Positions 52,602-60,448 of a DNA stretch of 64,000 nt are shown here, piece by piece. Position 1 is the stretch's first letter; every line of letters starts with the position of its first letter. The stretch is from Pseudonocardia sp. HH130629-09 (GTDB lineage: Bacteria; Actinomycetota; Actinomycetes; Mycobacteriales; Pseudonocardiaceae), in contig NZ_CP011868.1 of assembly GCF_001294645.1 (NCBI RefSeq), forward strand, positions 4,278,001 through 4,342,000. Reading direction: 5' to 3'. A program made the translations under genes and the position numbers. Below the pieces are notes generated by a model, which did not search any database, was not told the DNA's origin, and saw only the letters and a program-made list of their open reading frames with translations.

Positions 52602-53627
52602 TCAGCCCCCGGCCACTGCCCAGGACTCGAGCATGGTGCGCGCGATCGAGACCTTGCCCGGCAGTATAACGACCGGGCCGTCGCCGGGGTCGGGCTCGTC
52701 CCGGGAGCCCCAGTCGCCGCGGGCCAGCGCCGCCCGCAGCGTGTCCCGGGTGATCCACAGGGCGTCGGCGATCTCGCCGTCCTGCGGGGTCAGCGGCACG
52801 TCCGGATCCCCGATCGCGTGGAAACCGACCATCAGCGACCGCGGGAACGGCCACGCCTGGCTGCCGAGGTAGCGCACGTCGGACACCGCGATGCCGACCT
52901 CCTCGGAGATCTCGCGGTGCACGCACGCCTCCAGCGACTCGCCGGACTCGACGAACCCGGCGAGCACCGAGTAGCGCCCGGCCGGCCACACCGGCTGACG
53001 GGCGAGCAGGACGCGGTCCGCGCCGTCGTGCACCAGGCAGATGATCGCCGGGTCGGTGCGCGGGTACTCCTCGTGGCCGTTGTCGCAGATCCGGGCCCAC
53101 CCCGCGTTGTGCGGGCGGGTGCGGGTGCCGTCGATCGCACAGAACCGGGCGCGGTCGTGCCAGCTCAGCGTGGCGACCGCACCGGTGAGCAGCCCGGATC
53201 CGAGCGGGTCGAGGAACGCGCCGGCGGCGCGCAGGTCGGCCCACTCCCCCTCGCCGGTGAAGATGTCGCTGTCGGCGGTGCGTTCGGTCCCGACACGCAC
53301 CGCCCAGTACGGGACGCCGTCGCGTTCGCCGAGCAGCACGGCCTCGGCCGGCGGCTCCGCGGCGACGTCGGTGCCCGCGCGGGTCCGGACGTGCCCGCCG
53401 CGGCCCGCCGCGTCGTCCCAGGCGGCGGCGTCGACATCGCGGAACTCGCGGCCCGGCTCGACCTCCCAGTCGACCGGGGTGCGGCCCGACTCGTCGACGA
53501 CGACGACGCGTGCCGTCGCCCAGGTGTCGCGCACGTAACCGGGGTCGAGGCGCCGGTTCTCGTCGCGGGACAGCGCGTTGCGCGACAGCACCGGCTCCTC
53601 GGTCAGGGAGAAGTCCCCGCGGCTCAT
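52602..53627 (-). CDS. nudC: NAD+ diphosphatase NudC (Nudix)
   Basis: A 341-residue Nudix hydrolase splitting NAD(H) to NMN(H) and AMP. Nudix box GFVESGESLEACVHREISEEVGI region is intact (G...E...REISEEVG), followed by YLGSQAWPFPRSLMVGF, the NudC-specific SQPWPFPxS motif. The zinc ribbon before it is degenerate: FCAIDG and ICDNGH keep one Cys each where canonical proteins have CxxC pairs, so zinc is probably not bound. Its start overlaps the stop of the M16 gene by 4 bp. Confidence 0.92.
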   Translation of the reverse strand: MSRGDFSLTEEPVLSRNALSRDENRRLDPGYVRDTWATARVVVVDESGRTPVDWEVEPGREFRDVDAAAWDDAAGRGGHVRTRAGTDVAAEPPAEAVLLGERDGVPYWAVRVGTERTADSDIFTGEGEWADLRAAGAFLDPLGSGLLTGAVATLSWHDRARFCAIDGTRTRPHNAGWARICDNGHEEYPRTDPAIICLVHDGADRVLLARQPVWPAGRYSVLAGFVESGESLEACVHREISEEVGIAVSDVRYLGSQAWPFPRSLMVGFHAIGDPDVPLTPQDGEIADALWITRDTLRAALARGDWGSRDEPDPGDGPVVILPGKVSIARTMLESWAVAGG

Positions 53628-55018
53628 CGCCCGCCTCCGCGGACCACGCCGCCGAGCGCGGCGAGCGGTGGCCCGATCACGTCGGCGTCCCCGACGATCA
53701 CCCCGGTGAACCGGGTCGGCGCGAACAGCGCGGTGGCGGCCTCGGCGACCTCGTCGACGGTCACCTCCTCCAGCCGGCGCGGCCGGTCCCGGAGCCAGTC
53801 GACGTCGAGCCCCGCGGCGTGCAGCGCGGACAGGGTGCCGGCCAGCGCGGACTGGCTGTCCAGCGAGATCAGCAGCGAGCCGATCCCGTAGCGACGGGCC
53901 GAGGTGACCTCCTGCTCGGCCGGCGGGACCGCCACCATGCGGCCGAGCTCGTAGCGGGTCTCCAGCAGGGCGGCGGCGGTGACGTCGGAGGCGACGTCGG
54001 CGTCGAGGCCGAGCACCGCACCGCCGGGCACGAACTCCTGGCCGGAGTGCGCGCCGTAGGTGTAGCCCTTGTCCTCCCGGATGTTCTCCATCCAGCGCGA
54101 GGAGAAGTAGCCGCCGAACACGAGGTTCGCGAGCTGGAAGGCGGTGTAGCGCTCGTCGGTGCGGTCCAGGCCGGGCGCGGTGAGGCGAAGCTGGGACTGC
54201 ACGGAGCCGGGCCGGTGGACCAGTTCCAGGTCGCCCGCCCGCGGCATCGACGGGGCGGACAGCGAGCGGGCGGGGTGGTCACCGGTCCATCCCCCGAGCC
54301 GGCGGGCGACCTCGGCGATCGCGGCCTCGGGGTCGATGTCGCCGACGAGGACCAGGCTCGCGCCGTCCGGGACGACGACGTCGGCGTGCAGCTCCCGCAC
54401 GCGCTCCGGGGTCACCGCGGCGACCGCCTCGGCGGTCGGCATCTCCGAGACGATCGGGTGGTCGCCGAAGCGGCGGCGCATCAGCGCCTCGCGGGCGACG
54501 GTGCGCGGCTGCGCGCGGGCGACCGCGATCCGCTCGGCCAGCCGGGATCGCTCACGGGCGACCTCGGCGTCGGGATGGGTGGCGCCGGTGAGGACGTCGG
54601 CGAGGACGTCGAGGACCGTCGGCAGTCCGGTGGCCAGCGCGGAGCCGCCCGCCTGCAGGTACTCCGGGTCGACGGCGACGCCGAGCTCCCCGCCGACCGA
54701 GGCCAGTGCGTCGTCGATGCCGATCCGGTCGCGGCCCGCGGTGCCGGTCAGGACGGTCTCGGCGAGCACCTCGGTGCCCGCGGTGCGGGCGGCGTCGGCG
54801 ACCGGCTCCGGAGAGGCGGCCGGGATCCGCAGGACGGTCTCGACCAGCGGGACCCCCGGACGGTGGGCGGCCAGGACGGTCAGCCCGTTCGGAAGGGTCT
54901 CGGTGAGCACGTCCGGCAGCGGCACCTCCTTGGTCCGGCCGAGCGCGGGCAGCGGGCGGGGGCCGCGCTCGGTGCGGCCGATCTCCTCCGCGCTGCGGTG
55001 GGTGCGGGCGGCGCTCAC
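53624..55018 (-). CDS. M16 family peptidase, non-catalytic partner
   Basis: A 464-residue pitrilysin-fold protein without the zinc HxxEH motif (that region reads VADAARTAGTEVLAETVL) but with the C-terminal NLVFGGYFSSRWMENIREDK and GYTYGAHS block that supports substrate binding. It should pair with the HxxEH-bearing M16 protein encoded upstream, as in mitochondrial-processing-peptidase-like pairs. GTG 55018 is used. Coupled to nudC by an ATGA overlap. Confidence 0.88.
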   Translation of the reverse strand: MSAARTHRSAEEIGRTERGPRPLPALGRTKEVPLPDVLTETLPNGLTVLAAHRPGVPLVETVLRIPAASPEPVADAARTAGTEVLAETVLTGTAGRDRIGIDDALASVGGELGVAVDPEYLQAGGSALATGLPTVLDVLADVLTGATHPDAEVARERSRLAERIAVARAQPRTVAREALMRRRFGDHPIVSEMPTAEAVAAVTPERVRELHADVVVPDGASLVLVGDIDPEAAIAEVARRLGGWTGDHPARSLSAPSMPRAGDLELVHRPGSVQSQLRLTAPGLDRTDERYTAFQLANLVFGGYFSSRWMENIREDKGYTYGAHSGQEFVPGGAVLGLDADVASDVTAAALLETRYELGRMVAVPPAEQEVTSARRYGIGSLLISLDSQSALAGTLSALHAAGLDVDWLRDRPRRLEEVTVDEVAEAATALFAPTRFTGVIVGDADVIGPPLAALGGVVRGGGR

Positions 55019-55067
55019 GCAGGGCCCCCTTCGGTGTGGTTCACGGTGCCGGGACGGGTCGGGGCGC

Positions 55068-56407
55068 TCACGCGCCGCCGTCCCCGGGCGGTTCGGCGGC
55101 CGGCTCGACCAGCAGGACGGCCCGCCCGGAGGACCGCAGCCGGGCGGCCGCGGCGGCGACGTCGGCACCGGTCAGCGCGGCCAGCCTGCCGGGGAGCTCG
55201 ACGGCGAGCTCGGCGCGGCCGTAGAGCAGCTCGCGGGCGCCGAGCCCGAGCATCCGGTACATGACGCGGTCGTCCTCGCGGTGCAGGGCGGCGACCCAGC
55301 GGGCGGTCTGGCGCGCCAGCTCCTCGGTGTCGGGGCCCTGCTCGGCGAGGCGGTCCAGCTCCTCGTCGACCGCGGCGGTGACCCGGTCCGCGGACACCTC
55401 GGCCGGGTGCACCGCGGTGATGGTGAAGGTGTCGGGGTCGCGGGCGTCGAACGGGCCGCCCATCAGGCCGTTGGACGCCGAGACGTCGGTGACCAGGGCC
55501 GCCCCGTCGGCGCCGCCGTGGACCAGGCGGCGCTGCAGCCGCGAGGCTTCGCCGTCGGCCAGGACGGTGGCGAGCATGGCGTGGGCGAGGTAGGCGTCGG
55601 GCTCGGCCGCCGGGTCGGGGACGCGGTAGCCGAGCGCGAGCGCGGGCAGTGGGGCGTGCGCGTCGGCCACCGCCTGCCGGCGCTCGGCACCGGGAGCGGG
55701 CTCGGCGAACGACGGCCGCTGCGGGACGGGCCGGGCAGGGATGTCCCCGAAGTGCCGCTCGACCAGGGCCAGGGTGCCGTCGACACCGTGCTCGGACAGG
55801 TCGCCGTGCACCGTGACCAGGGCGTTGCCCGGCGCGTAGAAGGTGTCGAAGAACGCGGCCGCGTCGTCCAGGCTCGCCTGCTCCAGCTCGGAGAAGTCGC
55901 CGTAGCCGTTGTGCGCGTTCGGGAAGGCGTCGTAGAGGACCGGGGGCAGCAGGATCCACGGGAACCCCCGTAGGGGCGGTTGTGGACGTTGAGCCGGATC
56001 TCCTCCTTCACGACGTCGACCTGGTTGCGCAGGTTCTCGACGGTGAGCTTCGGGGCCCGCAGCCGGTCGGCCTCCAGGAACAGCGCCCGTTCCAGCGCCG
56101 CGCCGGGCAGCACCTGGAAGTAGTCGGTGTAGTCCTGGTGGGTCGAGCCGTTGAAGATCCCGCCCGCGGACTGGACCTGCCGGAAGTGCTCCAGCTTCTC
56201 CAGGCTCTCGCTGCCCTGGAACATCAGGTGCTCGAACAGGTGCGCGAAGCCGGTGCGGCCCTCCGGCTCGGAACGGAAGCCCACGTCGACGTGCACCGAG
56301 ACCCCGACCACCGGGGTGGCCGGGTCCGGGACGACGAGCACGCGCAGCCCGTTGGCCAGCGTGGCCCGGTGCAGCTCGAGAGCGGTTTTGTCGGCGATCA
56401 CGGACAC
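55068..56407 (-). pseudogene. M16 zinc peptidase, catalytic subunit, single-base frameshift
   Basis: Zinc protease: HxxEH in GFAHLFEHLMFQGSE, then VENLRNQVDVVKEEIRLNVH with the third ligand. After NVHNRPYGG the frame breaks; adding one base to a 5-C run at 55965-55969 (plus strand) continues as FPWILLPPVLYDAFPNAHNG and on through VHGDLSEHGVDGTLALVERH to the stop at 55068. The repaired gene is exactly 447 codons. If the shift is a sequencing error it is a normal active subunit; as written it is broken. GTG 56407 is the likely start. Confidence 0.87.
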
Positions 56408-56446
56408 GGGAGCGAGGCTATCCCCCACCCCCGACAACCTGCCCGG

Positions 56447-57816: not shown

Positions 57817-58578
57817 TCAGGGCTCCGGGACGGCGTAGACAACGATGTTCGACTCGTAGCTCCGTGCGGCCGGATCGAACACCCCGCCGCAGGTGATCAG
57901 GACGAGCTGCGGGTCGCCGTCGCGGCGGAACACCTCGCGGGGCAGGTCGTGCTTGCCGTACTCGCGACGCGCGACGACCCGGTAGCCGGCGGTGCGGCCG
58001 TCGGCACCACGCACGACGACCGGCTCGCCCACGACGAGCTGCGGCAGCACCGACAGGAACCCGATGCCCTGGGTGCGCGAGTCGACGTGGCCGGCGATCA
58101 CGGCGCTCCCGGTCGTGCCGCCCGGCAGGACGCCGGGTGCCCACCAGCCGACCGTGCGCACCTGCTCGGGGACGACCATCCCGCCGTCCGGGGCGGTGCC
58201 GACCGCGTCGACGGGTGCGGCCAGGCCGCGCGCGGGGAGCTCCAGGACGGCCGGGACGACCGGCGGCGACGCGGCGCCGGGCCCGGCCGCGGGGCGCGGG
58301 AAGACCGCCGAGACGGTCCACGGCTCGCGCGGCGCGATCGGGGCCCCGGGTACCGCGACCGGGTCGGGCGGCGCCAGGACCGGCAGTACCCGGGCCGCCG
58401 GCACCGCACGCGTCGCGGCGGTGGGTTCCGCGGGGACCGCCCCGAGGTCGCTCGCCTCCAGGCGGGTGTCACCGCCGAGCGCGAGACCGGCGCCGGAGCC
58501 CAGCAGGACGACGCCGAAGAGCAGCAGCGCGACCGCTCCCCGGGCGCCCCCGGCCGGGCGCCAGCGCCGACGGGTCAC
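57817..58578 (-). CDS. class F sortase
   Basis: A 253-residue membrane-anchored transpeptidase-like enzyme: N-terminal helix (AVALLLFGVVLLGSGAGLAL), Pro/Ala-rich linker, then the sortase domain with catalytic His in AVIAGHVDSR, Cys in LVLITCGGVFD and Arg in ARSYESN. Class F sortases are common in actinobacteria and their substrates are largely unknown. GTG 58578 overlaps the stop of the DUF4142 gene by 4 bp, so that lipoprotein is the prime candidate partner. Confidence 0.9.
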   Translation of the reverse strand: MTRRRWRPAGGARGAVALLLFGVVLLGSGAGLALGGDTRLEASDLGAVPAEPTAATRAVPAARVLPVLAPPDPVAVPGAPIAPREPWTVSAVFPRPAAGPGAASPPVVPAVLELPARGLAAPVDAVGTAPDGGMVVPEQVRTVGWWAPGVLPGGTTGSAVIAGHVDSRTQGIGFLSVLPQLVVGEPVVVRGADGRTAGYRVVARREYGKHDLPREVFRRDGDPQLVLITCGGVFDPAARSYESNIVVYAVPEP

Positions 58579-59492
58579 GCGCGGGCGCGACGCAGCCGGA
58601 CGGCGCCGGCGACGAGCAGCAGCAGCCCGGCACCGCCGAGCGCGACCGGCAGCGCGACGTCGGACGCCGACGCCGCCTGGCCGCCGGTGCCGGCGTCGAC
58701 GGCGGGCGAGCCGGAACCGGAGGCAGAGCCGTTGCCGGCCCCGTTGCCGGCCCCGTTGCCGGCCCCGTTGCCGGCCCCGTTGCCGGCCCCGTTGCCGGCC
58801 CCGTTGCCGGAGCCGTTGCCGGGCGCGGTCCCGTCTCCGGCGGCGTTCCCGTCGGCGCCGGAGCCGTTCCCGTCGGCATTGCCCGAGCCCGGGGTCGTGG
58901 CGCCGGCCGCGGCCGCGGCCTGGTCCAGCTTGGTCTTCAGCTCACCCAGGTTCGTCAGCTGCGCCCGGGCCTGGTCGAGCTGCTCCGGCGGCAGGCCGGG
59001 CACGTTCAGCAGCTGCTGGGCCTGGTCGCTGAGCGCTCCGACCTGGGCCTGCGCAGCCTGTAGCCAGCCCTGGTCGAACTGCTCACCGGTGCGGGCCTTC
59101 AGGTCGTCGACCTGGGCCTGGATCTCCGGGGAGACCTGGTCGGGCAGCGAGACCCCGATCGCCGACGCCAGCCCCCGCAGCTTGTCGTTGAGCTGCTGGC
59201 CCTCGCCCTGCACCTGCGGCGCGAGCTCCTTGACCGTGTTCCCGACGCCCTGCTCCAGGCCGATGCCGCCGAGCGCGGCGAGCCCGAGGGCCTTCTGGTG
59301 GGCGTCGCCGAACGCCTGGCGCGGGTCACCGACGCCCGGGACCTGCGGCAGGTTGTCCGGCAGGTTCGGCACCTGCGGAGTCTCGCCACCACAGGCGGTC
59401 AGTCCGACGAGCGCGGCCGCGGCGACGGCGGCACCGACGGTGCGGCTGATCCGGCGCGGGCTGGTCATGGTCCTACGCGTCATGCGAGTCAT
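58575..59492 (-). CDS. DUF4142 lipoprotein with (GAGN)n stalk and C-terminal anchor
   Basis: A 305-residue exported protein. It has a lipobox (LVGLTAC), a helical DUF4142-like domain (about 50-190: AHQKALGLAALGGIGLEQGV), an Asn/Gly repeat stalk and a C-terminal sorting-like end, LPVALGGAGLLLLVAGAV followed by RLRRARA. It lacks a canonical LPxTG, having LPVAL. Dual anchors are unusual. The coupled sortase gene suggests a non-standard sortase substrate. The start is one of several nearby ATGs; 59492 is the longest. Confidence 0.8.
   Translation of the reverse strand: MTRMTRRTMTSPRRISRTVGAAVAAAALVGLTACGGETPQVPNLPDNLPQVPGVGDPRQAFGDAHQKALGLAALGGIGLEQGVGNTVKELAPQVQGEGQQLNDKLRGLASAIGVSLPDQVSPEIQAQVDDLKARTGEQFDQGWLQAAQAQVGALSDQAQQLLNVPGLPPEQLDQARAQLTNLGELKTKLDQAAAAAGATTPGSGNADGNGSGADGNAAGDGTAPGNGSGNGAGNGAGNGAGNGAGNGAGNGAGNGSASGSGSPAVDAGTGGQAASASDVALPVALGGAGLLLLVAGAVRLRRARA
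58729..58812 (-). repeat. 12-bp tandem repeat encoding GAGN units
   Basis: Six perfect copies of CCGTTGCCGGCC and one partial copy, in frame, inside the DUF4142 lipoprotein gene. Copy-number change would alter stalk length without a frameshift, a typical site of strain variation. Confidence 0.92.
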
Positions 59493-59584
59493 CCCCCGGG
59501 AGTCACTGCTAGACCTTATGGGCTATCGCCCTACCCCATGTGGCGCAGCTCCAATCGCGCGGCGGACCTGGCAGCGGCGAGTGG

Positions 59585-60448
59585 CTATCGCCGGCGGCTG
59601 AGCGGCGCCGGGGCCGACGGCGGCGGGACGACCGGCCCGACGTCGCCGTCGGGGGTCTCGTCCAGGTCCAGGACGACCGGGGCATGGTCGCTGGGCAGCT
59701 TCCCCTTGCGTGCCTTGCGGTCCACCCACACGGCGGCACGCCGGTCGGCAGGGCCCGATCCGGCCAGCACGAGGTCGATCCGCATCCCTTGGTCCTGGTG
59801 AAAGCGGCCGGCCCGGTAGTCCCAGTAGCTGAAGACCCGCTCGTCGGGCCAGCGCTCGCGCAGGACGTCGCGCAGCCCGGTCCCGAGCAGCGCGGCGAGC
59901 GCGGCCCGCTCGGCGGGGGTGACGTGGGTGGCGCCGTCGAACAGGGACCGGTCCCAGACGTCGTCGTCGGTGGGGGCGATGTTGACGTCCCCGGCGACGA
60001 CCGTCGAGTCCGGGTCGCCCGCCGCGACCTGGTCGCGCAGCGCGGCGAGCCAGCGCAGCTTGTAGGCGTAGTGCGGGTCCTCCGGGCTGCGGCCGTTCGG
60101 CACGTACACCGAGGTGACCCGCAGTCCGCCGCAGGTGGCTGTGACGGCGCGCGCGTCCGGCTCGGCGAGCCCGCCCTCGGTGAAGGCGGGCTCGTCGGGC
60201 AGGCCGCGGACGACGTCGTCGAGCCCCACCCGCGACAGCAGGGCGACACCGTTCCACCGGCCCTGGCCGTGGTGCGCCCACGCATAGCCGCGCTCGGCCA
60301 GTGCCTCGTCGAAGCTCGCGGCGAAGTCGTCGTCGGAGAGCTTGGTCTCCTGCAGGCAGACGACGTCGGGTTCCCGTTCGTCGAGCCACGGCAGCAGCCG
60401 GGGCAGCCGGGACTTCGCGGAGTTCACGTTCCAGGTGGCCAGACGCAC
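59585..60448 (-). CDS. xthA: exodeoxyribonuclease III (AP endonuclease)
   Basis: A 287-residue EEP-fold nuclease that cuts at abasic sites and degrades 3' ends in base-excision repair. Motifs: MRLATWNVNSAKSRLPRLLP, DVVCLQETKL (metal Glu), YVPNGR, VVAGDVNIAP, RIDLVLAGS and PSDHAPVVLDL (catalytic Asp-His). The C-terminal 20 residues are a low-complexity tail. GTG start. Confidence 0.95.
   Translation of the reverse strand: MRLATWNVNSAKSRLPRLLPWLDEREPDVVCLQETKLSDDDFAASFDEALAERGYAWAHHGQGRWNGVALLSRVGLDDVVRGLPDEPAFTEGGLAEPDARAVTATCGGLRVTSVYVPNGRSPEDPHYAYKLRWLAALRDQVAAGDPDSTVVAGDVNIAPTDDDVWDRSLFDGATHVTPAERAALAALLGTGLRDVLRERWPDERVFSYWDYRAGRFHQDQGMRIDLVLAGSGPADRRAAVWVDRKARKGKLPSDHAPVVLDLDETPDGDVGPVVPPPSAPAPLSRRR

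Follow-up and report, generated by a model that had tools for sequence, protein, structure and literature searches.

A class F-like sortase and its DUF4142 lipoprotein neighbour in Pseudonocardia: a probable enzyme and substrate pair

Within the 64,000-nucleotide stretch of the Pseudonocardia sp. HH130629-09 genome that we analysed (hereafter the window), two overlapping genes encode a class F-like sortase and a DUF4142 lipoprotein. We propose that this sortase is dedicated to its own substrate, the lipoprotein, and that the two make a tether anchored in both membrane and cell wall, a reading which, judged from sequence, has a probability of roughly 0.8. The sortase's target is probably VDAGTGGQA (58674-58700, minus strand), a proposed class F sorting signal that is conserved in homologous sortase neighbours. 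The general form of the signal is already catalogued as the GVDTG sorting domain (GVDTG_CTERM, NCBIfam NF058571), and the sub-type found in the window falls mostly below the cut-off of that model.

Class F sortases occur widely among actinobacteria, and their roles are called unknown in PMC6998099 and PMC13251363. The latter, a 2026 study, states that two srtF-adjacent proteins with a signal peptide, a helix and a basic tail may be substrates, both of which were left unanalysed for want of a known pentapeptide. With a defined signal, a neighbour for each enzyme and a predicted cut site, class F function becomes directly testable.

The lipoprotein and the sortase

Both genes lie on the minus strand, as do the features described within them. 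The lipoprotein ORF (58575-59492, 305 aa) is the upstream partner of the sortase ORF (57817-58578, 253 aa), whose start overlaps the lipoprotein stop by 4 bp (GTGA) in our ORF reading. The original prediction had described the genes as a class F-type sortase overlapping a DUF4142 lipoprotein with a lipobox, a C-terminal helix and no LPXTG, and this description is confirmed.

The lipoprotein belongs to DUF4142 (PF13628, 47 bits compared to a cut-off of 27), with residues 58-148 (59049-59321) matching the profile of this helical bundle. It starts with a type II signal peptide (59391-59492), charged and hydrophobic, that ends in the lipobox LTAC (residues 31-34) with Cys34 as the predicted lipidated residue. 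In the AlphaFold2 model the helices of the mature chain (24-165) are mostly at a pLDDT of about 90. Foldseek with the bundle gave weak matches to DUF305 and ferritin-like bundles (best E 0.014) and no match at E<=0.001. Metal binding by the bundle was considered and set aside, given the weakness of these matches and the absence of His from the invariant columns of an alignment of 38 relatives.

A Gly/Ala/Asn stalk, (GAGN)n, is found at 58730-58819 and is lineage-specific. Among the 38 aligned relatives, all of which carry the strict motif described below, a Gly-rich stalk is present in 13 and absent from 25, so we do not count the stalk, which the original prediction had joining lipobox and tail, among the general elements of the signal. 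The mature distance from the Cys to the motif is 172-184 residues without a stalk and 225-281 with one, and another 39-46 residues run from the motif Val to the C-terminus. The protein ends in a hydrophobic segment, which includes LPVAL, followed by the positively charged tail RLRRARA (58578-58655). LPXTG is absent from this tail by sequence reading, and the Gram-positive anchor profile PF00746 finds no place over its cut-off in the whole genome.

The sortase matches the superfamily profile PF04203 at 56.7 bits (gathering threshold 26.6, E 2.6e-15). Its best sub-class model is NF033748 (class F) with 114.3 bits, followed by class GN with 21.6 bits; the curated class F cut-off of 166 bits is missed, and we file the enzyme as class F-like and divergent. 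A hydrophobic stretch at 58474-58545 reads as a putative N-terminal membrane anchor, and the catalytic domain (GHVDS ... ITCGG ... SYESN, 57826-58242) is delimited by the profile match and a sortase alignment, A2. In A2 numbering, H74, C140 and N154 are invariant in all 37 aligned sortases. According to PMC6998099, actinobacterial class F enzymes keep the His and Cys and have Asn in place of the catalytic Arg. In our reading N154 stands at the canonical Arg position and, with the Asn so placed by sequence reading, the window sortase has the class F residue pattern. AlphaFold2 predicts a confident sortase fold (pLDDT 91). The 50 PDB matches listed for it are all sortases, mainly of classes A, C and E, with A and C at the top, and direct sequence search against solved structures gave no match at E<=0.1.

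A motif before the last helix and its spread beside class F sortases

To describe the neighbours of such sortases we used a sample of Actinomycetota and genus loci that is not exhaustive (loci among those listed plus 80 further listed places). Duplicate loci (L004, L080, L024 and L087) were left out, and sortase genes below 120 bits or with less than 1 kb upstream were dropped, which reduced 166 genes to 158. For 128 of the 158 sampled Actinomycetota sortase genes (at least 1 kb upstream, strict filter), we found an upstream ORF with a membrane tail. The other 30 have no upstream tail by the strict filter, some of them having a missed, downstream or divergent one. Two class F sortase genes stand close together at L104 and L106, the latter without a recognised upstream tail gene.

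Homologues of the window lipoprotein account for 42 of the 128 surveyed tail genes (phmmer E<=1e-4). All 42 carry VxAGxGGxA directly upstream of the hydrophobic segment, and 38 have the strict form V[NDE]AG[TSN]GGQA. The 38-row alignment (A3) was chosen by the strict motif, which makes a count of 38/38 circular; the fair count is that over the 42 homologues (38 strict, 42 loose). LPVAL, which the original prediction had singled out as the sorting motif, is present in 8 of the 42 and lies inside the hydrophobic segment. The survey of pairs that this prediction called for did reveal a conserved and modular motif before the last helix. The idea that the pair could disclose a class F substrate motif holds; LPVAL as this motif is not supported, and the general form of the conserved motif was already in NCBIfam. 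At the other DUF4142-matching places of the own genome (L168 and L170), no such motif was read in the ORFs and no sortase was found in the loci.

Presence of the lipobox goes with the strict motif. A lipobox pattern is present in 38 of the 42 homologues, namely in every strict-motif protein and in none of the other four. These four DUF4142-type neighbours (L146, L150, L153 and L142) bear the variant tags VPAGTGGQA, VNAGTGGAA and VSAGSGGTA (the last one twice), and three of them (L142, L146 and L153) read as having ordinary signal peptides. Among the 86 other sortase neighbours, 15 of which have no recognisable signal peptide by our simple rule, the lipobox pattern occurs in two, one of them (L089) looking like an ordinary signal peptide. 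The two anchors of the original prediction are thus supported at the sequence level. In the distant relatives L272 (Jiangella) and L270 (a MAG), the tag occurs with an ordinary signal peptide and without a lipobox; the lipid anchor therefore seems to have been added within the Pseudonocardia line.

A sortase match is present in all 62 Pseudonocardia genomes searched. A 26-base degenerate DNA pattern for V[ND]AGxGGQA gave 44 matches in 41 of these genomes compared to 2 for the reversed pattern used as control. Forty of the 44 matches are C-terminal tails (the exceptions being L187, L231, L232 and L233), and a sortase is found in the fetched locus for 39 of the 40, the remaining one (L186) ending at a contig edge. 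At L160 the sortase has as its divergent neighbour a minus-strand gene for a Thr-rich protein whose tail reads AVNAGSGGQA, and therefore the pairing does not need co-transcription.

The own genome has four sortases by PF04203, and NF033748 likewise gives four matches. Each has an upstream tail gene, the tails reading GGVEAGDGSGG, GGVEAGGGS, GGVETGAGG and AVDAGTGGQA; the three class F-type sortases other than that of the window (L001, L002 and L003) thus each come after a gene whose tail-anchored product carries VE[AT]G. Beyond this genome, 143 of 196 genomes in a sample of the class have a class F match at E<=0.001.

Based on 90 non-redundant tails from the survey, the full pattern of the signal occurs in 67, compared to a mean of 6.7 and a maximum of 14 in shuffled tails and to 1 of 28 control tails taken from the window and from twenty 20-kb stretches spaced along the genome. 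The patterns were defined post hoc, with the 90 tails already inspected; 19 of these are DUF4142-type, and without them the full pattern is found in 50 of 71 (with a slightly different search span). A looser core, [VAIM]x[TAS]G, is present in 85 of 90 tails and also in 42.6 of the shuffled and 7 of the 28 control tails, and is on its own weak evidence. Unsupervised motif discovery, allowing one site per sequence, returned P-x-G-G-V-[DPNE]-[AT]-G-x-G-G-x-A from the 90 tails, with the Gly in 88. The VDAGTGGQA type is a divergent form of a signal, PxGG-V-x-[AT]-G-x-GG, that stands beside class F sortases across Actinomycetota.

The proteins that carry the signal are diverse. In 77 scanned neighbours, a subset of the 90 from which 12 near-relatives of the window lipoprotein family and L060 were left out, we found 24 DUF4397, 7 DUF4142, 6 ice-binding, 6 CHRD and 3 DUF305 proteins, among others. 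Seven sortase neighbours unrelated to the window lipoprotein have the same GGQ[AF] ending, which therefore behaves as a movable sorting signal.

The ending also tracks the enzyme. Within a quick tree built from 128 sortase domains, in which 51 of 125 inner branches are weak and tails are labelled by simple patterns, one set of 48 rows (SH-aLRT 97) takes in 45 of the 46 rows whose tails end in GGQ[AF]. Of these 45, 38 belong to the window lipoprotein family, and CHRD-like and unnamed proteins are among the remainder; the three further rows of the set carry near variants, and one GGQ[AF] row (L119) lies outside. Taken together, the motif labels require 14 changes on the tree, compared to a mean of 62 when shuffled. 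Other labels follow sortase clades less well, xxGL with 9 and GxG with 10 changes compared to 3 for QA. Were tail and enzyme inherited together as a unit, the result would look the same, and this too implies coupling.

With GVDTG_CTERM the window tail shares a short Val/Gly motif followed by a helix and a basic tail, as well as the adjacent class F-type sortase. It differs in having Ala instead of Thr at the predicted P1 position, a GGQA extension and a lipoprotein carrier. The tail scores 22.2 bits against NF058571 (E 0.0013, model positions 6-43), below the cut-off of 29, and among the listed relatives of the window lipoprotein only one (in genome G032, 30.7 bits) exceeds it. Of the 77 scanned neighbours, 32 match the model at E<=0.01. 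In the genus, 46 of 48 matches over the cut-off adjoin a sortase; we read this from fetched loci for two groups (10 of 10, and 10 of 12) and from coordinates, paired by hand with sortase positions, for another 26. Two GVDTG-type tails (GGVETGDGS at L240 and GGVDTGDGS at L245) have no sortase in the 3.1-3.2 kb fetched and are possible orphan substrates. Within the class sample, where we matched the two sets by hand, scored at most 34 candidates per genome and ignored kinship, a GVDTG match (E<=1e-5) is present in 52 of 196 genomes, all with a class F match, compared to 0 of 53 genomes without one.

In the openly licensed literature searched we found no description of the signal and nothing on DUF4142 or DUF4397 together with a sortase; the term 'GVDTG' led to no sortase paper, as judged by titles and the starts of abstracts.

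Proposed mechanism and alternative explanations

We propose that the preprolipoprotein would, after export, be lipidated on Cys34 and stay in the membrane, where its C-terminal helix and basic tail would also retain the other end, close to the sortase. This enzyme would recognise V[ND]AG[TSN]GGQA and cut ahead of the first Gly (x-V-x-[TAS]|G, corresponding to LPXT|G), which places the predicted scissile bond of the window tail between the A at P1 and the G at P1' in A-V-D-A-G. The other register, [ND]AG[TSN]|GG, is disfavoured, since the residue after the conserved Gly varies and the preceding one is A, T or S in 88 of 90 tails. The new C-terminus would then be linked by the sortase to a wall precursor, the putative acceptor. 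The product would be a helical-bundle protein with a lipid-anchored N-terminus and a wall-anchored C-terminus, acting as a membrane-wall tether or a wall-proximal scaffold. Both anchors are predicted to persist after maturation, so that one end of the protein may be held by the membrane and the other by the cell wall; if true, this lipoprotein version is an unusual protein with two envelope anchors.

By analogy with Braun's lipoprotein, a small lipoprotein tying membrane to peptidoglycan through its lipid and its C-terminus, the Pseudonocardia protein could be a covalent staple, with the C-terminus wall-linked via V[ND]A|G[TSN]GGQA, a signal that current models barely reach, and with the reach of the staple set by the optional Gly-rich stalk. 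We advance this narrower version tentatively, at somewhat less than even odds. The likeness is one of analogy only: the protein is another one, and Braun's lipoprotein depends on an L,D-transpeptidase and the outer membrane instead of a sortase and the cytoplasmic membrane.

Not all evidence favours a doubly anchored product. Persistence of both anchors is not visible in the sequence, and the Jiangella and MAG relatives, together with the four genus neighbours with variant tags, use the tag without a lipobox. The signal could thus be cleaved and the protein not be doubly anchored, with the lipobox as the sole lasting anchor beside a trimmed C-terminus, or with the lipid end released later. We regard this as a real possibility, if on the doubtful side, as the lipobox is found in all 38 strict-motif neighbours compared to 2 of 86 others. 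A further point against the proposal is that deleting all four srtF genes in A. missouriensis caused no phenotypic change (PMC13251363).

Other readings question the role of the sortase or the site. Because LPXTG is absent and cleavage is a prediction from sequence, the tail might be a type I membrane anchor only, the neighbouring sortase acting on other proteins. This seems quite unlikely to us: all 42 homologues retain the motif whereas the linker around it is largely variable, it is shared by unrelated proteins whose neighbouring sortases are related, control tails show the full pattern in a single case, and PF00746 finds no anchor over its cut-off in the genome. Processing of the Gly-Gly tail by a rhomboid-type (rhombosortase-like) protease is more improbable still. 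The arrangement of a Gly-rich signal ahead of a helix and an Arg tail does resemble GlyGly-CTERM tails; nevertheless a sortase stands beside nearly all GVDTG matches over the cut-off in the genus and nearly all QA tails, and all 52 genomes of the class sample with a GVDTG match have a class F match (kinship ignored). As for LPVAL being the sorting pentapeptide, to which we give almost no credence, it shares its first two residues with LPXTG but has no T-G pair, and the alignment contradicts it.

We keep the dedicated pair of sortase and lipoprotein as our preferred reading, and compared it with described systems. In the class E / LAXTG system (S. coelicolor SrtE1), as in our proposal, an actinobacterial sortase reads a C-terminal sorting signal (PMC5148588); the window signal is xVxAG instead of LAXTG, and the enzymes described here match the class F model. 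C. acnes PaSrtF belongs by name to the same class. PMC7451113 reports an oligo-Gly acceptor in vitro and LPQTG as substrate, unlike the non-LPXTG neighbour of the window enzyme, and for this reason class F specificity may be mixed.

Genomic surroundings of the pair

The pair is flanked in the window by an endonuclease/exonuclease/phosphatase-family gene and an aldehyde-dehydrogenase-family gene, which we take to be xthA and proA. We compared this order in 28 named relative loci, which were found partly by motif (one of two search patterns), include several contigs that are records of genomes already searched, and extend to another genus (Jiangella aurantiaca, L272). The sortase lies beside the gene in 26 of the 28, and the other two (L256 and L270) run to the contig end. 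The four-gene order is found in 21 of 28 loci; within the DNA stretch covered, the last gene is not found in 4 and more is missing in 3.

A 550-aa ORF on the plus strand (57949-59601) runs antisense to the pair; in all likelihood it is an artefact that stems from the high GC content together with the repeat. Elsewhere in the window, a peptidase M16 N-terminal match in the minus-strand ORF 55463-56437 appears by eye to continue in another frame (55068-55811), so that this gene (55015-56437, minus strand) looks frameshifted; it is followed by an M16-family gene at 53624-55168.
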